This document shows positions 10,356 to 60,792 of a stretch of 64,000 nucleotides of DNA, in pieces. The DNA lies in the IMG/VR virus record IMGVR_UViG_3300027675_000005, positions 1-64,000 of that record; one strand, written 5' to 3'. The DNA is from a virus. Under the pieces are notes generated by a model. It did no database searches and was not told the DNA's origin. It saw only the letters and a list, made by a program, of their open reading frames with translations. Each line of letters starts with the position of its first letter. Positions within the stretch are counted from its first letter, which is position 1. Made by a program: the position numbers and the translations under genes.

Positions 10356-10915
10356 TAATCAGGATCCTTAGCTTCAGCCTGCTTACTTCCTGTGAAGCCA
10401 GGAATCGGTTCCTTACCCTGTACAATTTCAGGAGTTTTAATACGCTTATTTACAATCAATTCGCCTTCCATGATAATCTGACTGGCGCGAATGTAAACCT
10501 TATCGCCCCGAACTTCGAACTCACCTTTCTCGCCAACTGCGAATTTGTTCTTTGTGAGATGTGCAAGAGAATCGCTGAAGTCTAGAGCAAACGTGTCATC
10601 CGTAGGATGTTGAACTCCACCATGCCCCTCTTCCCATCGCCGCTGCTTATCTTTTGGGATGGTTAGCAGCGCCATCTTCAATGTGGTGTCAGATGAACCT
10701 GCAAGCAACATGACCTCGGTATTAAATTTCTCCTTAACGTTGAAGGAGACACCTCCAACTACCAAGACTCCAGCTTCTTGATCTTCGGTATCAGTTCCTC
10801 TAACTTTAATAATCGAACCGTTCTTTTTGATGTATTCTTGCTTACCCCACACATGGCGTTCAGTACCGTCATTTATATCCCGCGAACGTTCACGGAAATG
10901 AGTAAAGCTCGTCAT
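10355..10915 (-). CDS. Baseplate spike protein, gpV/Mu gp45-like
   Basis: A 186-residue protein starting MTSFTHFRERSRDIND at 10915, which overlaps the upstream stop (ATGA). An OB-fold-like N-terminal half (WGKQEYIKKNGSIIKVRGTD) is followed by repetitive strands (GEKGEFEVRGDKVYIRAS) that fit the beta-helical spike of gpV/gp45 proteins. The spike pierces the outer membrane. The C-terminus is charged, and no HxH iron-binding tip motif was seen. Confidence 0.75.
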   Translation of the reverse strand: MTSFTHFRERSRDINDGTERHVWGKQEYIKKNGSIIKVRGTDTEDQEAGVLVVGGVSFNVKEKFNTEVMLLAGSSDTTLKMALLTIPKDKQRRWEEGHGGVQHPTDDTFALDFSDSLAHLTKNKFAVGEKGEFEVRGDKVYIRASQIIMEGELIVNKRIKTPEIVQGKEPIPGFTGSKQAEAKDPD

Positions 10916-12222
10916 GAAACTTCTCCAAACCAATAAGGAAGGGTCAACGGCGGGGGTTTAGGTTGCGGAGGCTCATTCTTCGCCATCTGTTCTAGAGATT
11001 CGGTAGCAGACATAAATGGAAGAATGGATAAATCTGGAGGCAACCACGGCTCTGGAAACTGTCCTGCTATCAACGAAATACCGGACTGCGCCATACGCGC
11101 TTCTCCAGTATTGAATTTGATATTAGCAAGCCCGAATCCTTCTCCACCTCCTGCTGAAGGCGGAGGAGATAGCGTTAGACTAGTCTTAATTGTCTTATCT
11201 GCATTTACAGTGTACGTCAGGTCAGTACATTCGAACATATCAAAAATACCCTCAGGCGGAACCTCAACGTAATGCAAGTTTCCAATATCCCACGGGCCAC
11301 CATTTGACATAACGTGAAACACTTCAATCTGAATCTTCTTACTCTTAGCGGCTCGCGCGTTCATCTCGAACCGTCCCCGCCGCTCCAGTGTCTTATCGTC
11401 AGCATCACCGTTATGTTGAATGGTATGAGGTACATGCGATTTCATACGCTTATTCTTTGTTGTTTTATGCGTCTTGAGAACAGCTTCCTCTCCCCATTTA
11501 TCTTTCTTGGAACGCTGACCTTTTACTTTGACTTCTGACTTGTCATTCTCTTCAGATTGTTCCGCAGAGAACTCAAGGATGTTACGTCCAAGAATAAGAG
11601 GATCTCCACCTCCACCAGCACAGCCATCAGTGACAACTAATTTCCCTTCTCGACTCTCATACATGAAATAACAGTTCTCGACTGCGATACGATTAAGTTC
11701 GTCCACCACACGGGCACCGTCGCGGAAACGCTGTTTATCTAATTTGATTACTTCGCCCTTCCACTCGGTCTGAATCTTCCAAGGCTCGAGCAACTTTTCA
11801 ACAACTTCTTTAGTAGTTGGCTTCAACATATTAGTGGTTGGATGTTGATGCGAACTATCGACCAGACGCTTAGTCTTACCACGAGCAGTCAACTTAATGG
11901 TGTATTCGTTCGGACCAATGTTAACTGATAGCGAAGCACCCTTTCCACTATCTCCTTCGCTTTCTTCAGTTCCAGCAGTACCTTTCTTTGCGCCGGTTCC
12001 TTTACGCTTATCAACGTTCCCAGTGAAAGCAAGCTGCCCGCCCACATAGACGTTTATTTCTGCCCCTGCGGCGGCTGCGCGAGCTATTGGGCCCGACGGC
12101 ATAGCACCAGCAAAGATAGAGACCGAAAGACTTCCAGTCAATTGCTCCTTACTACGCTGGAGGGTCATTTCCGTCCAGGTTGTAAGTTCAGAACCACCAA
12201 CTGTAATGACAACAGGTTTCAC
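10912..12222 (-). CDS. Baseplate hub protein, gpD/Mu gp44-like
   Basis: A 436-residue protein starting with GTG. The N-terminus ELTTWTEMTLQRSKEQLTGSLS followed by GQLAFTGNVDKR is typical of the gp44/late control gene D hub, which forms the central ring under the tube. A low-complexity Lys/Gly insertion (about 70-95) and a proline-rich C-terminus (QPKPPPLTLPYWF) are extra. It lies between the DNA-circularization-like protein and the spike, as in Mu. Confidence 0.8.
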   Translation of the reverse strand: MKPVVITVGGSELTTWTEMTLQRSKEQLTGSLSVSIFAGAMPSGPIARAAAAGAEINVYVGGQLAFTGNVDKRKGTGAKKGTAGTEESEGDSGKGASLSVNIGPNEYTIKLTARGKTKRLVDSSHQHPTTNMLKPTTKEVVEKLLEPWKIQTEWKGEVIKLDKQRFRDGARVVDELNRIAVENCYFMYESREGKLVVTDGCAGGGGDPLILGRNILEFSAEQSEENDKSEVKVKGQRSKKDKWGEEAVLKTHKTTKNKRMKSHVPHTIQHNGDADDKTLERRGRFEMNARAAKSKKIQIEVFHVMSNGGPWDIGNLHYVEVPPEGIFDMFECTDLTYTVNADKTIKTSLTLSPPPSAGGGEGFGLANIKFNTGEARMAQSGISLIAGQFPEPWLPPDLSILPFMSATESLEQMAKNEPPQPKPPPLTLPYWFGEVS

Positions 12223-17263: not shown

Positions 17264-18793
17264 TTAGTACGGGCGATCGCAGTTGGTCAGCAACGACGGT
17301 TTGGCGTTGATGATGATGTTGCTGATACGGACCGGCGGGCGATAGATAAAATCGATCCACAGCTTACCGGGGATGCCCTGACACTTCGGAGCAACCTCGA
17401 AGTCCGTCTTCAGAATGATATCCTTATCGATATCCTCGAACTCAGAGAAGAGAATACCGATCTGCGATTTGGCCCATGCTCGGAACGCGCCAAGGATGAG
17501 CTTCGGATTCGTACCACGAACACCTTCGGGAATGCTGGTGTTCTTGGTGTACAGACCAAGGCCAAGCACACGGCCAAGCTGGAGAGCGGCCTGATCCGCA
17601 GTTGCCGCTGCGAGGCGACGGCTGCTGACATTCCACCATGTGGCGTTGAAACGACCGTTCTCGTCGTAACGGTTGTTCGTCACATCGTTGACGATCATCG
17701 GGCTGGTCATCTGGCCGGTGCCACCCTGAAGCGGAACCACCACAACAAAGCCAGTCGCCTGCAGAACCTGCTGCTCCTCGAACGTGAAGCACTGGAAGCA
17801 GCTCTCCGGTTGAATGAGACAACCCAGGACACCAAAGTTTGGTCCCTGAACGTTCATCTCCGGATGATCGATAGTCGAGCAACAAGACAATGCAGCATAC
17901 GCTGCCGCTTTCTGCCAACCAGCAACCGGATCAGTGGTGCAATGAGCGATACGGCTCACTTCTGCAGAGTTCGTGTCAGACGACATAATCTGACCGAACG
18001 AGCCATAGTTGTAAGTGTAACCATGGCCGAAGCATTGCGGCTTCGAGCAGTCCCACGCGGACTTGATGTACTCGATCATCGCGTCCTGCCAATCATCATC
18101 GGCGTACAGCATTGCGATGCAGCAATAGCAGCATTCACCGAGAATCGCCTGATAGTCAGGCGGGGTGAAAGCGGTATTGGCGCCCTGCACACTCTGGGCA
18201 ACCACCACTTCGATACCGACAGGAGCATAGTCACGACGCTGATGCCAATTATAAAGAATGTTGATAGCATTACCGACTGTGCCAGCATTCTTTGACGTCA
18301 ACGTGATTACTCCCGCTGCCGCAACAGCGATAAACGGAAGTCCAGGTTCACTGTTGAGCTCGTTTGCCACATTGGTGGCAATCTCGTCTGCCGTATCGCC
18401 TTCGTGAACGCGAACGGAAGTATTGTAACGCCCGTCGACCAAGAACAGATCAACCCGACCGTCACTCTCCGCCGTACCAGTAAAGGTCACGGTGTAAGCA
18501 GCCTTTACGGATGCCCCGATGGTTGCGTCCATCCACGGAAGAGCATAGAACTCCATCACCTGCTGCGGGCAGCACAGGAAGGCTGTACGCAGACCTTCGG
18601 CAATGATGCTGCCCTCGCCGAACAGCAGATCGACGTCCTTCAACGAAGGCATCTTGATGAGCTCGCCATCCAAAGCAGTACCGGTGTCGAGCATCTGACC
18701 CTCGACTAGAATGCGGCACCGGTTGGGATAGGCATTGAGGCTCGGATCGAAACAAATCCGGATTGCACCGGACCGCAGACTGTCGATTGACAT
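17264..18793 (-). CDS. Contractile tail sheath protein (Mu gpL-like)
   Basis: A 509-residue protein. The C-terminal third carries the sheath signature: a TKNTSIPEGVRGTNPKLILGAFRAW segment, FEVAPKCQGIPGKLWIDF, and an end that would donate strands to the neighbouring subunit. The N-terminal segment NAYPNRCRILVEGQMLDTGTA is typical of Mu-like sheaths. A GECCYCCIAM cluster near residue 220 gives it an unusual number of cysteines. It makes this phage a myovirus. Confidence 0.9.
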   Translation of the reverse strand: MSIDSLRSGAIRICFDPSLNAYPNRCRILVEGQMLDTGTALDGELIKMPSLKDVDLLFGEGSIIAEGLRTAFLCCPQQVMEFYALPWMDATIGASVKAAYTVTFTGTAESDGRVDLFLVDGRYNTSVRVHEGDTADEIATNVANELNSEPGLPFIAVAAAGVITLTSKNAGTVGNAINILYNWHQRRDYAPVGIEVVVAQSVQGANTAFTPPDYQAILGECCYCCIAMLYADDDWQDAMIEYIKSAWDCSKPQCFGHGYTYNYGSFGQIMSSDTNSAEVSRIAHCTTDPVAGWQKAAAYAALSCCSTIDHPEMNVQGPNFGVLGCLIQPESCFQCFTFEEQQVLQATGFVVVVPLQGGTGQMTSPMIVNDVTNNRYDENGRFNATWWNVSSRRLAAATADQAALQLGRVLGLGLYTKNTSIPEGVRGTNPKLILGAFRAWAKSQIGILFSEFEDIDKDIILKTDFEVAPKCQGIPGKLWIDFIYRPPVRISNIIINAKPSLLTNCDRPY

Positions 18794-52225: not shown

Positions 52226-52945
52226 ATGAACGAACAAGCAATCGAGAAGTCGGTCAACCATTCTGAAGGGTTGCTCGACGTCCACAGTATCTTCTACACC
52301 ATCCAAGGCGAGGGACCCTTCAGTGGATTCCCCGCCGTTTTTATTCGGCTCGCGGGCTGCAATCTCCAATGCCCGTGGTGTGATACCGAATACACACAAG
52401 GGCGCCGCTTTGCGCATCCCGAAGTCGTTGCGGACTACGTTAGCTCGCTGAGCCTACCCGGAGGCCTCATAGTTATAACGGGCGGGGAACCGTTCAGGCA
52501 GAATCTAACTGCGCTACTTGAGCATCTGGACGATCGCAAACATCTTGTTCAGATCGAAACCAACGGCACCCTTCCACCAAGCGAATTTAAACACTATTCA
52601 AAATACCCGCGAATGGATCATTTCCACGGCGTCTATATTGTCTGCAGTCCAAAAACAGGACGTGTTAATCAGGCGATCATAAATAACGCATGTTGTTTCA
52701 AATACGTTCTCGATGCGGATAGTATGAATCCGGAAGACGGACTTCCGATTCGTGCCCTCGGCCACACTGCTAATCCCCAACTTGCTCGACCACCAGATGG
52801 TTGGGCTGAACCAATCTATCTCCAGCCTATGGATACAAAAGACCCCGCGCATAATATTCGGAACATCCAAGCTGTAACTCAGTCTTGCATGAAACACGGG
52901 TATAGGCTACAGTTACAAATTCATAAGTACATCGGAGTGGAGTAA
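52226..52945 (+). CDS. queE: QueE, 7-carboxy-7-deazaguanine synthase
   Basis: A 239-residue radical-SAM enzyme converting 6-carboxy-tetrahydropterin to 7-carboxy-7-deazaguanine. The start region SIFYTIQGEGPFSGFPAVFI is diagnostic. The Fe-S motif is CNLQCPWC (Cys 45, 49, 52; CX3CX2C), and TGGEP (85-89) is the SAM-binding block. It is the first gene of the modification cluster and ends one base into the gat-queC start (TAATG). Confidence 0.95.
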   Translation: MNEQAIEKSVNHSEGLLDVHSIFYTIQGEGPFSGFPAVFIRLAGCNLQCPWCDTEYTQGRRFAHPEVVADYVSSLSLPGGLIVITGGEPFRQNLTALLEHLDDRKHLVQIETNGTLPPSEFKHYSKYPRMDHFHGVYIVCSPKTGRVNQAIINNACCFKYVLDADSMNPEDGLPIRALGHTANPQLARPPDGWAEPIYLQPMDTKDPAHNIRNIQAVTQSCMKHGYRLQLQIHKYIGVE

Positions 52946-54330
52946 TGTGCGCAATCATGGGGGCCCTCATCTGGAGGGCGACCACCCACCATCTCATCGC
53001 GGCTAATCAAATCCTTACTGATATCGGAAATGCTAGTTTCGCTCGGGGTCGTGATGGATGGGGGTTTCATACTCAGGAGAGCAATGGACCCAACCACGAA
53101 TACAAAACAGCCGTAAGATCCATAAGTCTAAAAAAGAATCTACAATTCTTTAGTGTGACTAACTCACGCGCGGCTGTAAATCTGATCGGTAATTTCCGTG
53201 CTGAGCCCACGACGGAGTTTGTGGTCAAGAAAACAGCAAACGATCAGCAACCCTACTCACTTAATAAATGGAACATTGTTCACAATGGAACTATTGCGAA
53301 CGATAAAGTATTGCGAACAGGAGAATACCCCACCACAATTGATAGTGCTGCAATTGTTGAGCAACTTGCCAAAGTTACTGATCTACCAGATCGAATACAA
53401 GCAGAATCAGCTTTTCGAATTGTTATTTCTAAACTTAAAGGAAGCTACGCTATCCTTGCAACACATGATGACTTTCCAGATCTGATGTTTGCTGCCTGCA
53501 ATTATAGACCTATCTGGTTCACTAGACAAGAACGAGGGATCTTCTTTGCAAGCTCAAAGGATTATTTTCCAAAAGATTTTGTTTCCGAAATGCTTCAACC
53601 TTATTCCTGTTGGGTTTTTGGACCTGACCAGATTACTAGACTCGACGCTGAATCCGATTACGGCACGAGAGCTCTTATCGTATGTAGTGGTGGCATGGAC
53701 AGCGTTGTCGCTGCTACTAAAATGAAAGATGATGGATATAAGATAGAGCTAGTTCATTTTGAATACGGTTCGCGAGCTGAAGGTCCTGAAATAATAGCGG
53801 TCAAGAATGTAGCGGAATTTCTTGACGTACCGTTACACTTTATACCAATGAACATCTACGATCCCAAAGATTCCCCATTACTTCAAGCAGATAGTAAAAT
53901 TGCAGGGGGCGAAGCTGGAGCTGAATTTGCACACGAATGGGTCCCGGCGCGTAATCTTGTGATGTTATCACTCGCAACTGCGTTTGCAGAAGCTAGAGGG
54001 ATTAGTATAATCGTACTTGGTAACAATCTAGAGGAAGCAGGTGCTTACCCAGACAACGAACCTGAGTTCATTAATCGTTTTAATGATATGCTTCCATTTG
54101 CAGTCGGAGATGGAAAACGAGTTAAAGTTGTCATGCCTGTTGGTAACTATATGAAACACGAAATCGTTGCTATAGGGCACGAGGTCGGCGCTCCACTTCA
54201 CCTCACATGGAGTTGCTATCGTGCGGGTCCGATCCACTGTGGTACTTGTGGACCATGTTACATGCGTAGAACTGCATTCGAGATTAATAAGCTGCCCGAA
54301 GTTATCCAATACACAAATGGAGGAGAATAA
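52945..54330 (+). CDS. queC: GAT-QueC fusion: amidotransferase plus 7-cyano-7-deazaguanine synthase
   Basis: A 461-residue fusion. Residues 2-~235 are a class II glutamine amidotransferase with nucleophile Cys 2 (MCAIMG), RGRDGWG (34-40) and HNGT (113-116). Residues ~240-461 are QueC with PP-loop SGGMDS (248-253) and the C-terminal zinc motif CYRAGPIHCGTCGPC. QueC makes preQ0. GAT-QueC fusions replace archaeosine synthase in some archaea and occur in phages such as 9g that carry deoxyarchaeosine in DNA, so the ammonia domain probably modifies the nitrile. Confidence 0.93.
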   Translation: MCAIMGALIWRATTHHLIAANQILTDIGNASFARGRDGWGFHTQESNGPNHEYKTAVRSISLKKNLQFFSVTNSRAAVNLIGNFRAEPTTEFVVKKTANDQQPYSLNKWNIVHNGTIANDKVLRTGEYPTTIDSAAIVEQLAKVTDLPDRIQAESAFRIVISKLKGSYAILATHDDFPDLMFAACNYRPIWFTRQERGIFFASSKDYFPKDFVSEMLQPYSCWVFGPDQITRLDAESDYGTRALIVCSGGMDSVVAATKMKDDGYKIELVHFEYGSRAEGPEIIAVKNVAEFLDVPLHFIPMNIYDPKDSPLLQADSKIAGGEAGAEFAHEWVPARNLVMLSLATAFAEARGISIIVLGNNLEEAGAYPDNEPEFINRFNDMLPFAVGDGKRVKVVMPVGNYMKHEIVAIGHEVGAPLHLTWSCYRAGPIHCGTCGPCYMRRTAFEINKLPEVIQYTNGGE

Positions 54331-54331
54331 G

Positions 54332-54778
54332 ATGACCTATATCTCAACAAAGACATGGGGTCACGACATTGGGCTCTCCGCTTGCTTCCGGCAATGGAAA
54401 GCACAAAGTCATTGCAAATATCTTCACGGCTACGCTCTTTGTATTCACATTGAATTTGAATCCAAAGAATTGGATGAACGCAACTGGGTAGTTGATTTTG
54501 GTTCTCTAAAAGGTTTCAAAGGTTGGCTTGAAAATACCTTTGATCATAAGATGTTAGTAGCTGAAGACGACCCAGACCGAACAGCCTTATGCCATCTGGC
54601 AAAATTACACATCGCCAATGTAGTATTGGTACCCGATACAGGATGTGAAGCATTTGCTAAGATGATTTATGAATATGGAAAGATCTGGTTAAAAGATAAC
54701 GGCTACGCTCCACGAGTTGAAGTTCGATCTGTCGAAGTGAAAGAACACGGTGCTAACTCAGCAATCTATATGGAGTAG
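54332..54778 (+). CDS. queD: QueD-like 6-carboxy-tetrahydropterin synthase, variant zinc site
   Basis: A 148-residue protein starting at ATG 54332 after AGGAG. It keeps the catalytic Cys (28) and the His of LHG (32) in SHCKYLHGYAL, plus NWVVDFGSLK and the FDHK motif. The usual first zinc His (AAH in E. coli QueD) is replaced near LSACF (Cys 18), and the third is Tyr (HGY for HGH). Position between gat-queC and folE makes the QueD role the best call, but zinc binding must differ. Confidence 0.88.
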   Translation: MTYISTKTWGHDIGLSACFRQWKAQSHCKYLHGYALCIHIEFESKELDERNWVVDFGSLKGFKGWLENTFDHKMLVAEDDPDRTALCHLAKLHIANVVLVPDTGCEAFAKMIYEYGKIWLKDNGYAPRVEVRSVEVKEHGANSAIYME

Positions 54779-54780
54779 AA

Positions 54781-55110
54781 ATGAAACAACTTCGAGCACT
54801 AAATGAGATCCGTCAGAAGGAATGGGACCCAACTGACGTAATTACTCTCGCTTACCGGGGCAATGAACTTGCTGGCGAGATTGGAGAAGCCTGTAATGTA
54901 ATTAAGAAACTGGAACGCGAACGTCTTGGTATCCGGGGATCGCGAGCTACGATTGAACAACTCGCTGAAGAACTAGCAGATGCAGTAATCTGTCTCGATT
55001 TGATTGCTATGCAAGCCGGGATTGATCTAAACGCAGCAGTCATTAAGAAATTCAACGCCACTTCTGAGAAGTACGGACTCAGAACTAAATTCAACGGAGA
55101 TCAGACGTGA
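54781..55110 (+). CDS. MazG-like nucleotide pyrophosphohydrolase
   Basis: A 109-residue protein with the MazG EXXE...EXXD pattern: ELAGEIGEACNVIKKL (Glu 33, 36) and EELADAVICLD (Glu 64, Asp 67). These enzymes hydrolyse (d)NTPs to monophosphates. Located inside the deazaguanine cluster, it may adjust the dGTP/GTP pool or remove a non-canonical nucleotide. Four bases overlap the next start. Confidence 0.88.
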   Translation: MKQLRALNEIRQKEWDPTDVITLAYRGNELAGEIGEACNVIKKLERERLGIRGSRATIEQLAEELADAVICLDLIAMQAGIDLNAAVIKKFNATSEKYGLRTKFNGDQT

Positions 55111-55532
55111 AGATCTATCTTGCCGGTGCGATATGGGGAGTCGAAGATCCAGTTACGTGGCGTCGCAAACTTGCAGATCGTCTACCACAGGGGTGGGAAG
55201 CAATCGATCCAACACAGATTGAATTGTTTGTAGAGAACGAGCATGAAGAAGAAAAGGCCCGTGAAATAGTATCAGCAGACCTTAATGCGATCCAGATGAG
55301 TAATGCTTTCCTTGCTCGAATAGATCGACCCTCTTGGGGTACTGCAATGGAGATGTTCTACGCCTATAACCTACGGATCCCAGTCATTGGTTGGATTCCA
55401 AATCGAGAAGCAGTAAGTGAGTGGGGTGGGAAAAGAATAACGCCACCCTGGGTCAGAGCTCACTCCGATATCGTTACTTCGGACTTCGAAGTCGTTAAAC
55501 AATTCTTGCAGAATCTACTTGTAAAAGCATAA
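55107..55532 (+). CDS. Nucleoside 2-deoxyribosyltransferase-like protein
   Basis: A 141-residue GTG-start protein. KIYLAGAIWGVEDPVTWRRK, IVSADLNAIQMSNAFLARID and RPSWGTAMEMFYAYNLRIPV follow the family order, with an acidic residue in the middle and SWGTAME near the active site. The family swaps bases on deoxyribose or hydrolyses deoxynucleoside monophosphates. Within this cluster it could salvage or discard deoxyguanosine derivatives; the substrate is unknown. Confidence 0.8.
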   Translation: MKIYLAGAIWGVEDPVTWRRKLADRLPQGWEAIDPTQIELFVENEHEEEKAREIVSADLNAIQMSNAFLARIDRPSWGTAMEMFYAYNLRIPVIGWIPNREAVSEWGGKRITPPWVRAHSDIVTSDFEVVKQFLQNLLVKA

Positions 55533-55547
55533 CATCTCGCTTATAAT
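55519..55547 (+). promoter_or_regulatory. Phage promoter for folE
   Basis: TTGTAA (55519) and TATAAT (55542), 17-bp spacer, overlapping the end of the previous gene. TAACGGAG follows. Confidence 0.7.
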
Positions 55548-55568
55548 TAACCACTAACGGAGTACCCC

Positions 55569-56123
55569 ATGACCGGTAATCTACGCGGCGCTTTTAAAGC
55601 CGTCCTTGAAAACATCCCTGGTGAAGACGCCAACAGGGAAGGTCTGCAAGAGACGCCGGAGCGTGTGGCTCGAGCCTGGGAATTCTGGACGTCCGGCTAC
55701 AACGTAGATCCAATCAGCGTACTTAAGACCTTCGTTGATGGATCTGAAGGAGTAGACGAAATGGTCGTAGTCAAAGACCTGCCGTTCTATTCTCACTGTG
55801 AACATCACCTTGCCCCATTCTTTGGTACTGTGACAATTGGTTATCTACCATACAAACGAATCGTTGGATTAAGCAAGCTCGCTCGCTTACTCCAAATCTA
55901 TTCTAGACGCCTACAAGTTCAGGAACGTCTGACCTGTCAAATGGCCGACGCTATCTTCGAGGCTCTGAAGCCTTTGGGATGTGGTGTTATTATTCGCGCC
56001 CGGCACTTATGTATGGAGTCCCGGGGAATATGTCAACAGGGTCATTACACTGTTACTAGTGCTCTCCGAGGCATTTTTAAGACTGAGGATTCCGCTCGTT
56101 CAGAATTTCTGGGAATGAAATAA
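55569..56123 (+). CDS. folE: GTP cyclohydrolase I
   Basis: A 184-residue enzyme making dihydroneopterin triphosphate from GTP, the first step to 7-deazaguanine. The family blocks are GLQETPERVARAWEFWTSGY, FYSHCEHHLAPF (zinc Cys 77 and His 80), RIVGLSKLARLLQIYSRRLQ and RARHLCMESRG (zinc Cys 148). It lies after the que genes under its own promoter. The stop overlaps the next start. Confidence 0.95.
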   Translation: MTGNLRGAFKAVLENIPGEDANREGLQETPERVARAWEFWTSGYNVDPISVLKTFVDGSEGVDEMVVVKDLPFYSHCEHHLAPFFGTVTIGYLPYKRIVGLSKLARLLQIYSRRLQVQERLTCQMADAIFEALKPLGCGVIIRARHLCMESRGICQQGHYTVTSALRGIFKTEDSARSEFLGMK

Positions 56124-56251
56124 TGGCAATTAAACAGATTGTTTTTACTGAAGACGGATGGTGGATATGGGTAGTGGGCCGGGATGGCACTTTTCATATC
56201 GGACCCTATCGTTGGCGCTTACTAGCAGTGATCAGGAGTTGGCGTGTCTAA
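56123..56251 (+). CDS. 42-residue Trp-rich hypothetical protein
   Basis: ATG 56123 overlaps the folE stop (TAATG). It has six Trp in 42 residues (GWWIWVVGRDGTFHIGPYRW). Its stop lies inside the next gene. A small beta-sheet protein is likely; role unknown. Confidence 0.55.
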   Translation: MAIKQIVFTEDGWWIWVVGRDGTFHIGPYRWRLLAVIRSWRV

Positions 56252-56468
56252 ACGTTCATCCTATGCTGTCTTTGTTGATGGCGAATTGATCGGAAATCTA
56301 ATCTGGCAAAGTTGGAGATTAGTATTACATAAGCATGACGGTACGTCGATTCGATATCACCGTGATGTCGGAGTTAAACGAGCCCGTGGTAACATCGCAA
56401 GGAATTACAGAGTCAGAGATGACCAAGTATCACTAACACTCTGGAAACTTGAATTGGCAGCAGAATAA
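56244..56468 (+). CDS. 74-residue basic hypothetical protein
   Basis: GTG start at 56244 after CAGGAG (8-base overlap). Basic and beta-rich (SYAVFVDGELIGNLIWQSWR, then RDVGVKRARGNIARNYRV). It could bind nucleic acid. Located between folE and dpdA. Confidence 0.55.
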   Translation: MSKRSSYAVFVDGELIGNLIWQSWRLVLHKHDGTSIRYHRDVGVKRARGNIARNYRVRDDQVSLTLWKLELAAE

Positions 56469-56650
56469 TGAAAGATAAATACACCGCACGACATTGTGAT
56501 ATGGTCATCCCATCTGATATAGATGATTTAATTCATCGTCGAATAAAACCATTCTTAGATAGCGTTGGGATGAATAAAAGTCTAGAGCATCTACTAGCAG
56601 AAGCATATCTGCAAGGAATGAAAGATGCCGTACAGACTATGGAAAAATAG
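56468..56650 (+). CDS. 60-residue helical hypothetical protein
   Basis: The start overlaps the previous stop (TAATG), and it ends directly before dpdA. KYTARHCDMVIPSDIDDLIH and a helical C-terminus (HLLAEAYLQGMKDAVQTMEK). Unknown; co-expression with dpdA is expected. Confidence 0.55.
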   Translation: MKDKYTARHCDMVIPSDIDDLIHRRIKPFLDSVGMNKSLEHLLAEAYLQGMKDAVQTMEK

Positions 56651-57577
56651 ATGCAAATCTATCTAGCTGCGATCTATACAAACGGATATCGTGCCGGGGG
56701 TAACTCCGGCCGATATCGTAACTTGACTGACAATGAAAAGTTATTGGTAGACGCAGTCCCACATATCCTAGAATCATATCATTATGTTCAGAAACAGAAG
56801 TTCGCTGATGCCATGCGTGAGGACCACAGCAAGGTCTTTCTTGACTCCGGAGCGTTCTCCGCTCATACGCTTAAGGTAGAACTCTCAGTTGCCGAGTACT
56901 GCGAGTATATCAAACGCAACACAGATATCATTCGTGTCGAAGATGGAATCCCATTAGTATCCGTACTCGACGGCATCGGTGATCCGCTTCAGACGTATCG
57001 CAACCAATGCGAAATGGAAGCCCGTGGGGTTCGCCCACTTCCTTGCTTTCACTCAGGCGAAGATGAACGCTATCTTGAATACTACGTTAAAAATTATGAA
57101 TACATTACTCTAGGTGGTATGGTCGGAGCTTCCTCTGCGCAGCTTATGAAATGGCTCGATCGAATTTGGGATAGATATCTAGTTGACGGCAGCGGTCGCC
57201 CGCGCCTCAAGGTACATGGGTTTGGTATCACCTCTATTCCAATTATGGAAGCCTATCCTTGGTATAGTTGCGACTCATCTTCTTGGGTGCAGACCGCAGC
57301 GTTCGGTGGTATTCAGACACCACAATGGGGTCCGATCAACGTCTCCGAGAAGAGTCCGCAACGCCACGATGCAAACCAACACGCCACAACTCTGTCTGCG
57401 ATCGAGCAGGATGTTATCTTTAAGCATCTTGAGGATAAGGGTTTCACATACGAACGGTTGTCCACCGTCTACGAGTCTCGAGCTGCATATAACTTGTGGG
57501 CTTATGGTATAATCAATGCTATAGTTAACATCAGGAATCGTGGCATCTACAAAGGCAGAGTGAGGGAACTATTCTGA
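56651..57577 (+). CDS. dpdA: DpdA-like DNA-guanine transglycosylase
   Basis: A 308-residue protein related to tRNA-guanine transglycosylase through the phage DpdA branch. KVFLDSGAFSA (Asp 65) corresponds to the base-binding acid loop. KVHGFGITSIP followed by YSCDSSSW (Asp 208) matches the candidate nucleophile loop. It should exchange guanine in DNA for the 7-deazaguanine made by the upstream enzymes. The tRNA-binding zinc domain is absent, as expected for a DNA enzyme. It overlaps the clamp gene (TGATG). Confidence 0.92.
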   Translation: MQIYLAAIYTNGYRAGGNSGRYRNLTDNEKLLVDAVPHILESYHYVQKQKFADAMREDHSKVFLDSGAFSAHTLKVELSVAEYCEYIKRNTDIIRVEDGIPLVSVLDGIGDPLQTYRNQCEMEARGVRPLPCFHSGEDERYLEYYVKNYEYITLGGMVGASSAQLMKWLDRIWDRYLVDGSGRPRLKVHGFGITSIPIMEAYPWYSCDSSSWVQTAAFGGIQTPQWGPINVSEKSPQRHDANQHATTLSAIEQDVIFKHLEDKGFTYERLSTVYESRAAYNLWAYGIINAIVNIRNRGIYKGRVRELF

Positions 57578-58533
57578 TGTTGAAAGAACTTAAATTCGTT
57601 CAAGGTGCTGTAGCGAAGAAAGACTTCGTTCCTGCGATGACACATTTCCGTATCGAAAAAGGTACAGTAAGATCGTTCAATGGTAATCTCGCTATCTGTT
57701 CTCCTATTCCGCTGGATCTGGAATGCACTCCGAAAGCGGACCCGCTAGTCCGTGCGATTGCTAACTGTGAAGAAGAGGTTGTACTTAGTTTAACGGAGAA
57801 AGGGCGTCTCAAAGTACAGAGCGGTAAGTTTCGAGCTTTCATTGAGACTATAGAAGGGGATGCACAAACACATCTAGAACCTATTGGTAACATTGTTAAC
57901 ATCGATGGATCTAAATTACTTGATGCGTTTCAAAAGATCAATACGTTTATTGGTAACGATGCGTCCCGCCCTTGGACCAATGGTATTCTATTGCGTAATC
58001 AATCCGCATTTGCAACAAACAATGTCTGCGTGATTGAATACTGGCTTGCGATTGACATTCCGTTTGTGGTTAACATTCCTGGAACTGCGGTTAAAGAAAT
58101 CATTCGTGTTGGGGAAGCTCCATCCCATCTCCAACTTAGCGATAATTCTGTTACCTTTCATTATACCGGGGGTCGTTGGATTCGAACGCAACTCTACGTT
58201 ACCCACTGGCCGGATATCAGTAAAGTACTCGATCAGAAGTCCGCTCCAGTTCCCATTGATCCGCGTCTCTATCCAGCATTAGATAGTCTAACTATGTTCT
58301 CAGATGATCTAACGCGCGTCCATCTTAAAGACGGACTTCTCCGAACTCATCTGGCAGATGAAGTTGGAGCTACCTACGAAGTAAGCGGCCTAGGAATCAC
58401 TGGACTTTACCAAATTAAAATGCTACGCTTGCTAGAAGGAGTAGCTGAAACAGCAGACTTCACTAGGTACCCGGATCCCGTATTGTTCTTTGGAAAGAAT
58501 CTGCGGGGTGCGATTGTTGGTATGCGTGGATAA
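57577..58533 (+). CDS. DNA polymerase sliding-clamp-like protein
   Basis: A 318-residue protein with beta-clamp-like layout. LKFVQGAVAKKDFVPAMTHF and GTVRSFNGNLAICSPIPLDL resemble phage clamp homologues, followed by two further domains with repeated beta-alpha patterns. It sits between dpdA and the DNA polymerase, so a processivity factor is the likely role. Similarity to bacterial DnaN is low. Confidence 0.7.
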   Translation: MLKELKFVQGAVAKKDFVPAMTHFRIEKGTVRSFNGNLAICSPIPLDLECTPKADPLVRAIANCEEEVVLSLTEKGRLKVQSGKFRAFIETIEGDAQTHLEPIGNIVNIDGSKLLDAFQKINTFIGNDASRPWTNGILLRNQSAFATNNVCVIEYWLAIDIPFVVNIPGTAVKEIIRVGEAPSHLQLSDNSVTFHYTGGRWIRTQLYVTHWPDISKVLDQKSAPVPIDPRLYPALDSLTMFSDDLTRVHLKDGLLRTHLADEVGATYEVSGLGITGLYQIKMLRLLEGVAETADFTRYPDPVLFFGKNLRGAIVGMRG

Positions 58534-58743: not shown

Positions 58744-60792
58744 ATGCCGCGTAATCCTGTTGAAGGAATCTTCTGGGACGACACAATTATTCCCAAGGAA
58801 CCAAAGGTCCAACGGGAGAAACGTACTCCGCCTGAGCAAACTTGGCTCGATCATTTGCCCGGGCTTGAAGAAGCCCGGGCGTTTCCTGTTGAATTCTTAA
58901 CGTACGATGACCTGCTGCGTATCAGCGCAGACGTCGAAGAACTTATAATCGATGTGGAAGTATTCGAAAATTATTTCCTCGCAGTGTTCACGCATGTGGC
59001 GTCCGGTAAAGTCTTCTACCTAGATTCTAAAACTCCACAGCTAACCGAGGGCTTGCGTTGGATCCTTGAGAATTGTCTTACCGTGGGATTTAATTCTATC
59101 TCTTACGATCTAACAATCTGTTATCTGATATGTGATGGTGTAGAAGAAGATACCGTAAAAAATGCTTCAGATGCCATAATCAAACTTAACATAAATCCAT
59201 CTGATATTCTTAGAGAACACCGAGTTAAGAAGTTCGGTGTTAACCATATTGATCTAATTGAAGTTGCTCCTTTATTTGCAAGCCTGAAAACGTATGCCGG
59301 AAGACTCCACGCAAAGAAGATGCAAGATCTTCCATTCCATCCCGATACCGTTCTAAGCGAAGATCAGATCAGCATTGTCCGTTGGTATTGTGTTAACGAT
59401 ACTCTCAACACCCAACTGCTTCGTGAGTGCTTGAACGAACAGATTGCATTGCGATATGAACTCAGTAACGAATTCAATATCGATCTACGTTCGAAATCCG
59501 ATGCGCAGATTGCTGAAGCTGTCATTAACAGGGAGCTCAAAAGGCTCACTGGGCGTTTCCCAAGTAAACCTATGGTTCCGATTGGCACAGTTTATCAATA
59601 CCGCATTCCCTATTACCTTAACTTTCAATCTGACTTAATGAAGTACGCTCTGAATGTAGTTGCCAATGCCCAGTTTATTGTCGATCACACTGGTTCGATC
59701 GCAATGCCGAAAGAGATCAAAGAACTTCCGATCGAAATGAACGGAGCAGTGTACCGCATGGGAATCGGCGGACTACACAGTTCGGAACAGACAGCAGCCC
59801 ATGTGGCGGACGATGACTTTATATTACTTGACAAAGACGTAGTATCTTATTATCCTTTCATTATTCTGAATCTAGAATTAGCACCACAACATCTTGGAGA
59901 TCCGTTCCTTACTGTCTATCGATCCATTGTTAATAAGCGCGTCGATGCAAAGCGGGCTGGAAACAAAGCTGCCGCGGATTCGCTCAAGATCGTAGTCAAC
60001 GGAACGTTCGGTAAACTGGGTAACATGCACTCCATTATCTACTCGCCCGACTTGCTTTTTCAAGTTACGCTTACGGGCCAACTAACCCTTCTACTTCTAA
60101 TTGAACGTCTCGAGCTGGCAGGCATTCGTGTGGTCAGCGCCAATACGGATGGTATTGTAATCAAATGTCCACGCGCACTTAAAGAACGCATGGAAGGGAT
60201 TATTAAATCATGGGAATTTGATACTCGCTTTGAGACCGAGGGGTCTGAATTCCAAGCTCTCTATTCCAGGGATGTCAATAACTATATTGCGATTAAGAAA
60301 GATGGAAAGATCAAATCCAAAGGGGCTTATGCGAAACCCGAATACGCTGCCGAGCGACTGCATAAGAATCCAACAGCAACTATCTGTCTAGATGCAGTAC
60401 TTGAATATCTTATTAGAGCTGTTCCATTGGAAACCACAATACGGTCTTGTGCTGACATCGCGAAGTTTGTTAGCGTCCGCACTGTACGGGGAGGCGCTGC
60501 ACGGGTTCGGCCTTCAGGAAACGAATATATAGGTCGATCTATACGATGGTATTATGCAACCAATACTGAAGGGGAATTAGTCTATGTTATGTCCGGTAAT
60601 AAAGTACCGAGGTCTGATGGAGCAAAGGAGCTAATGGTGCTTCCAGATTCTCTGCCCACCGACATAGATTACGAGTGGTACATCAAGGAGGCACACAGAA
60701 TATTAATTGATATAGGAGCGGAAACTGAAACCGCTAGCGGGGCCCCCACAGCCGCTGATCAGCAGGGGGCTCCCCATGTACAGGCCAGCTAG
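58744..60792 (+). CDS. Replicative DNA polymerase, family B-like, with 3'-5' exonuclease
   Basis: A 682-residue protein. Exonuclease motifs: IIDVEVFE (Asp 70, Glu 72), GFNSISYD (Asn 117, Asp 122), YCVND (Tyr 215, Asp 219). Polymerase motif A is DVVSYYP (Asp 365), motif B KIVVNGTFGKLGN (Lys 415), motif C SANTDGI (Asp 469). Motif C has Asn where family B normally has the first Asp of DTD. The C-terminal ~30 residues are low complexity. It is the likely replicase of the phage and is preceded by a clamp-like gene. Confidence 0.88.
   Translation: MPRNPVEGIFWDDTIIPKEPKVQREKRTPPEQTWLDHLPGLEEARAFPVEFLTYDDLLRISADVEELIIDVEVFENYFLAVFTHVASGKVFYLDSKTPQLTEGLRWILENCLTVGFNSISYDLTICYLICDGVEEDTVKNASDAIIKLNINPSDILREHRVKKFGVNHIDLIEVAPLFASLKTYAGRLHAKKMQDLPFHPDTVLSEDQISIVRWYCVNDTLNTQLLRECLNEQIALRYELSNEFNIDLRSKSDAQIAEAVINRELKRLTGRFPSKPMVPIGTVYQYRIPYYLNFQSDLMKYALNVVANAQFIVDHTGSIAMPKEIKELPIEMNGAVYRMGIGGLHSSEQTAAHVADDDFILLDKDVVSYYPFIILNLELAPQHLGDPFLTVYRSIVNKRVDAKRAGNKAAADSLKIVVNGTFGKLGNMHSIIYSPDLLFQVTLTGQLTLLLLIERLELAGIRVVSANTDGIVIKCPRALKERMEGIIKSWEFDTRFETEGSEFQALYSRDVNNYIAIKKDGKIKSKGAYAKPEYAAERLHKNPTATICLDAVLEYLIRAVPLETTIRSCADIAKFVSVRTVRGGAARVRPSGNEYIGRSIRWYYATNTEGELVYVMSGNKVPRSDGAKELMVLPDSLPTDIDYEWYIKEAHRILIDIGAETETASGAPTAADQQGAPHVQAS

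Follow-up and report, generated by a model that had tools for sequence, protein, structure and literature searches.

A phage gene cluster predicted to insert a 7-deazaguanine base into DNA, and its QueD-branch enzyme with an altered metal site

We examined a 7-deazaguanine DNA-modification (dpd) gene cluster in a 64,000-base stretch of DNA, hereafter the window, which forms part of a 69,235-base metagenomic virus record in IMG/VR. The cluster runs along the plus strand in the order queE, gat-queC, queD (of a branch that we call HGY), a MazG-like gene, a Nuc_deoxyrib_tr gene, folE, two small open reading frames and dpdA, followed by genes for a sliding clamp and a DNA polymerase (Table 1). An earlier reading made from the sequence only had placed queE, gat-queC, queD, folE and dpdA on one strand within 52226-57577, and family matches together with shared gene order confirm that placement; the MazG-like and Nuc_deoxyrib_tr genes, which lie inside the cluster, were absent from that reading. 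Because the five named genes match their families at E-values of 9e-18 to 2e-207, and because the gene order is the same in phages 9g, PaMx25, MiCath, R7M and Vid5, chance resemblance can be excluded.

Table 1. Positions and family matches of the cluster genes, their downstream neighbors and two tail genes in the window.
Feature	Position	Strand	Match
baseplate hub	10912-12222		
tail sheath	17264-18793		phrog_165, 2e-54
queE	52226..52945	+	phrog_2076 E 1e-61; Pfam Radical_SAM
gat-queC, class II glutamine amidotransferase (GAT) fused to QueC	52945..54330	+	phrog_10428 E 2e-207; Pfam QueC 3e-54; GATase_7 3e-5
queD, HGY branch, 6-carboxytetrahydropterin (CPH4) synthase-like	54332..54778	+	Pfam PTPS 9e-18; phrog_2389 3e-43
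MazG-like nucleotide pyrophosphohydrolase gene	54781..55110	+	phrog_229 E 6e-7; Pfam MazG-like 1.5e-4 (below cut-off)
Nuc_deoxyrib_tr (PF05014) gene	55107..55532	+	Pfam 8e-12
folE, GTP cyclohydrolase I	55569..56123	+	Pfam 5e-66; NCBIfam TIGR00063 over cut-off
dpdA, 308 aa, DNA guanine transglycosylase, 9g/CAjan type	56651..57577	+	phrog_887 E 1e-89
DNA polymerase sliding clamp, conserved downstream neighbor	57577..58533	+	phrog_947 E 3e-75
DNA polymerase, conserved downstream neighbor	58744..60792	+	phrog_1252 E 8e-201; 53-55% to PaMx25/MiCath

Homologs of FolE, QueD, QueE and QueC are thus all encoded, as in the clusters of GAT-QueC type that produce deoxyarchaeosine (dG+), and, apart from QueD, every step of the pathway has a homolog of 55-71% identity in 9g, PaMx25 or MiCath, so that the pathway predicted earlier stands. 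Active-site motifs had been reported as present except for changes in QueD, and this too is what we find. QueE, which is 60% identical to that of PaMx25 and matches the solved QueE 6nhl (E 2e-18), retains its CX3CX2C motif, and FolE retains its Cys/His segments. The GAT-QueC protein aligns over its full length with those of 9g and PaMx25 (55-58% identity) and, like that of 9g, keeps Cys2, the N-RAEPTTE, HNGTIANDK and IDSAA segments, SGGMDS and the cysteines of CX(n)CGTCGPC; the class II GAT domain is fused to QueC with its catalytic residues included, a defining feature of dG+ clusters of this type. No match to the preQ0 transporter family PF02592 was found in the virus record.

The sequence-only reading had called the 308-residue protein a DpdA, and had made its case depend on membership of the superfamily of DpdA and the tRNA-guanine transglycosylases (TGTs). 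The protein falls inside that superfamily both by profile and by predicted model (mean predicted local distance difference test score, pLDDT, 92.6), which has the TGT fold and aligns with a Z of ~18.5 to TGTs as well as to the bacterial DpdA 7ui4, a DNA preQ0 insertase. Neither Pfam nor NCBIfam gave a match; identity to the Queuovirinae phages 9g, PaMx25 and MiCath is 67-71%, and the aspartates D65, D107 and D208, conserved as expected in a DpdA-type transglycosylase, are invariant across 42 relatives. Could the genes instead serve queuosine or archaeosine modification of host tRNA? These tRNA bases need the same four synthesis genes, but there is no Pfam TGT match in the virus record, the transglycosylase belongs to the DpdA enzymes of phages (67% identical to that of 9g), and the 9g enzyme, whose substrate is DNA, failed to complement E. 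coli tgt (PMC6884629), making a tRNA role extremely improbable.

QueD is the one enzyme that departs from expectation. Aligned with E. coli QueD (window residues in brackets), it keeps the catalytic Cys27 (C28), Asp70 (D71) and His71 (H72), the pterin-anchoring Glu110 (E138) and also H31 (H32), while H16 is replaced by F19, H33 by Y34 and T111 by H139. We take H16, H31 and H33 to be the zinc holders of the E. coli enzyme. Two of these three histidines of the C-X3-HGH motif are thus lost (F19, H32, Y34), and for this reason we name the protein a QueD-branch enzyme with an altered site rather than a canonical QueD. Its fold is nonetheless that of the PTPS/QueD family, in which QueD is classed as PTPS-I, COG0720: the AlphaFold2 model (pLDDT 96.7) aligns to E. 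coli QueD with a Z of 14.1 and a root-mean-square deviation of 1.7 over 114 residues. The protein scores 43.8 bits against the NCBIfam model queuosine_QueD (TIGR03367), under its cut-off of 89.25, although this is a weak test, the 9g QueD, of proven function, likewise falling below it (63.1 bits). No solved structure lies close to the HGY branch, the best being 3jyg and QueD2 7v0f at <30% identity.

The altered site is widely shared. A set of 86 relatives, made up of the window, 80 viral loci and five named phages, shows no variation at Phe19, Tyr34, His27 and His139, and 183 of the 284 family members aligned carry this fixed pattern, which disposes of damage or a frameshift in this one gene. 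Across the 284, the states of the site are coupled, canonical members having H16, H33 and T111 and the others Phe (rarely Tyr/Leu), Tyr and His at these positions, a split whose cleanness is partly a sampling effect since members were gathered by similarity to the window or PaMx25 protein (HGY loci: window 54332-54778, L013-L092 and L104-L183). A few distant cellular paralogs have other site patterns. The only intermediate is the QueD of Synechococcus phage Yong-L2-223 (L214:40123-40560, minus strand), with Phe16, a retained His33 and Glu-Gln-His; it is the weakly supported sister of the HGY branch, which is itself monophyletic (support 0.95) on a long stem, and a scan of viral contigs with this protein found no relatives. 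Judging from these alignments, the changes are a lineage trait of a branch spread over phages, Alphaproteobacteria and marine group II archaea, not decay. Our literature search found no description of the HGY branch, which is weak evidence.

In genomes, the HGY protein fills the place of QueD beside QueE, FolE, QueC and DpdA. Viral HGY genes have QueE as a neighbor at 66, FolE at 63 and DpdA at 45 of 80 loci, the corresponding figures for viral canonical genes being 65, 66 and 54 of 80, and none of the viral loci compared carries both types. Four genomes of marine group II archaea (G011-G014), which may be incomplete, hold an HGY gene as their sole PTPS-family gene, within a FolE-QueE-QueC-QueD cluster, and encode an archaeosine-type TGT elsewhere.

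Is the enzyme nevertheless inactive, so that the phage relies on the QueD of its host and the cluster is incomplete in practice? The loss of two of three zinc ligands speaks for this, given that known QueD enzymes need zinc (PMC9508795). A dead gene, however, would not keep its conserved positions, and here the altered site holds throughout a large clade with 29 invariant positions among 56 sequences and catalytic residues that never vary; nor do the marine group II archaea have another PTPS-family gene to fall back on. We regard an inactive QueD as very doubtful. If the enzyme works, how does it do so? The three positions change together, and in a few members Asp or Gln replaces His27, which suggests a metal site re-built from His27, His32 and His139. 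Our tentative proposal, against which the odds still lean somewhat, is that HGY enzymes form 6-carboxytetrahydropterin either with these candidate ligands in place of H16, H31 and H33 or in a zinc-free manner. If true, the branch would provide the first exception to the zinc rule among QueD/PTPS proteins, common to phages, Alphaproteobacteria and marine group II archaea: a family regarded as zinc-dependent may hold, in a large branch, a second solution to the same chemistry, and annotation by the HGH motif would miss working QueD enzymes or merge different ones.

Two ideas about the branch were tried and abandoned. The first was a role of the cellular genes in zinc starvation, but their neighbors in Rhizobium, Bradyrhizobium, Aurantimonas and Microvirga belong to pyrimidine, electron transfer flavoprotein (ETF) and other families, with zero for zinc homeostasis, and the phage FolE and QueC keep their zinc residues. 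The second was that QueD type predicts the final base; the HGY type occurs with GAT-QueC (window, MiCath, R7M), with plain QueC (Iggy, RHEph04) and with QueC plus a QueF-like protein (MMDA13), and canonical QueD likewise with GAT-QueC (9g, PaMx25) and QueC (Seurat). In Alphaproteobacteria the HGY gene adjoins a folE. It is the sole PTPS-family gene in three of these genomes, G004 (L125), G006 (L168) and G016 (L129), and since neither a full QueC nor a clear QueE was found in them, its product there may serve another use or the pathway may be partial. In Stenotrophomonas Menderavirus phages (L297:4004-4669) an HGY-type QueD that is extended at its C-terminus adjoins a gene for a YbiA-like N-glycosidase; within 4 kb, none of QueE, QueC and DpdA is annotated.

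What, then, would the cluster make? By homology, FolE would convert GTP to dihydroneopterin triphosphate, QueD, with its altered metal site, would yield 6-carboxytetrahydropterin, QueE would give 7-carboxy-7-deazaguanine and the QueC part of GAT-QueC preQ0. DpdA would put the base in place of guanine in DNA, and ammonia from the GAT part would turn the nitrile into an amidine (archaeosine), before or after insertion; gat-queC is predicted to give both preQ0 and the amidine. Our reading, at a probability of roughly 0.8, is that the phage makes a 7-deazaguanine base from GTP and inserts it into its own DNA, where part of the deoxyguanosine (dG) is likely to become dG+ and resistance to restriction is a likely benefit. 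Homology to characterized relatives favors partial replacement, most likely by deoxyarchaeosine, as a defense against restriction over other readings. FolE, QueD and QueE of 9g complement E. coli mutants, and 9g GAT-QueC together with DpdA introduced dG+ into plasmid DNA, at up to ~18% of G (PMC6884629); the link from GAT-QueC to archaeosine drawn in the sequence-only reading is sound in this respect. DNA of MiCath resists EcoRI, BamHI and EcoRV (PMC10710427), and that of 9g is reported to resist many restriction enzymes (PMC5567051).

It is conceivable that the pathway runs and yet leaves deoxy-preQ0 (dPreQ0) or deoxy-7-amido-7-deazaguanosine (dADG) as the main virion base, with a GAT domain that is weak, slow or acting on part of the DNA. 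In 9g, dpdA alone gives dPreQ0, which is still detected when gat-queC is expressed below dpdA (PMC6884629), and among close relatives of the window conservation of the protein is lowest in its GAT domain (60-75% identity against 77-84% for the QueC domain). On the other hand, the catalytic segments of the GAT domain are all kept as in 9g, in which dG+ dominates (PMC6884629), and we consider such an outcome unlikely.

Several points weigh against a dG+-forming cluster. The phage is known from a metagenome record alone; its QueD lacks two zinc ligands; we found no assayed HGY-branch enzyme in the literature examined; and in MiCath the host's own QueD may supply the product. Gene content has also misled before, nt-1 (with ArcS) and Dp-1 (with a QueF-like protein) proving not to contain mainly dG+ as predicted, neither of which uses GAT-QueC (PMC6884629).

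Two further genes lie between queD and folE. Among close relatives the MazG-like gene occurs only in the nearest (L002/L013), and the Nuc_deoxyrib_tr gene is retained at this place in nearly all (L003-L010). Agrobacterium phage 7-7-1 has the same pair of families, and the annotation of its first 50 kb includes no dpd genes; for that reason we set them aside as pathway enzymes and treat both as putative nucleotide-pool genes. Nucleotide salvage or clean-up is the likely role of the deoxyribosyltransferase.

The genomic setting is that of a contractile-tailed mosaic phage, not of a Queuovirinae siphovirus. Structural genes at ~6-29 kb, in the region 1-30000, have their closest counterparts in Yong-L2-223 (capsid 64%, sheath 58% and terminase 54% identical), Agrobacterium phages 7-7-1 and Milano being more distant; they include genes for the tail sheath, baseplate, capsid, portal and terminase. 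The genes from 40 to 61 kb (39951-61310) are nearest to those of the siphoviruses MMDA13, PaMx25 and MiCath. Since the nearest relatives differ by region, the phage is a mosaic, one half, with the structural genes, being of contractile-tail type and the other, with the replication and modification genes, of siphovirus type: it has the 9g/PaMx25-type replication and dpd module of Queuovirinae and lacks their non-contractile tail module. Such a transfer has a precedent, as Rhizobium phage RHEph04 carries the same module and its close relative RHEph06 has been called a myovirus (PMC7472734).

To a specialist the cluster itself is a known gene set of low surprise, and the QueD branch deserves more attention; the cluster extends what is known of the distribution of archaeosine-type DNA modification by a single genome, one with contractile-tail genes. 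Escherichia phage 9g (Nonagvirus, Queuovirinae) shares FolE, QueD, QueE, GAT-QueC (55%), DpdA (66.6%), their order and the downstream clamp and polymerase, whereas it is a siphovirus with a canonical QueD (H16, H31, H33); in its cluster queE and gat-queC are separated by an additional gene, and the MazG and deoxyribosyltransferase genes are missing. The Nipunavirus phages PaMx25/NP1 are similar in GAT-QueC (58%), QueE (60%), DpdA (67%), clamp (58%) and polymerase (53%), but also have a canonical QueD. Pseudomonas phage MiCath has the nearest DpdA (70.8%), GAT-QueC, an HGY-type QueD and the same order, although its genome is of siphovirus type and its cluster too is without the MazG and deoxyribosyltransferase genes. 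Sphingomonas phage vB_StuS_MMDA13 has an HGY-type QueD and a DpdA related to that of the window (62%), and its ATPase (69%), exonuclease and helicase are the closest to those of the window, but it encodes plain QueC with a separate QueF-like amidotransferase and no GAT-QueC (PMC7472734). Yong-L2-223, finally, is of the same ~65-69 kb contractile-tail type and has a dpd cluster of its own, which differs in its plain QueC, a DpdA of 44% identity and the mixed-site QueD (F16, H33 kept, E-Q-H).

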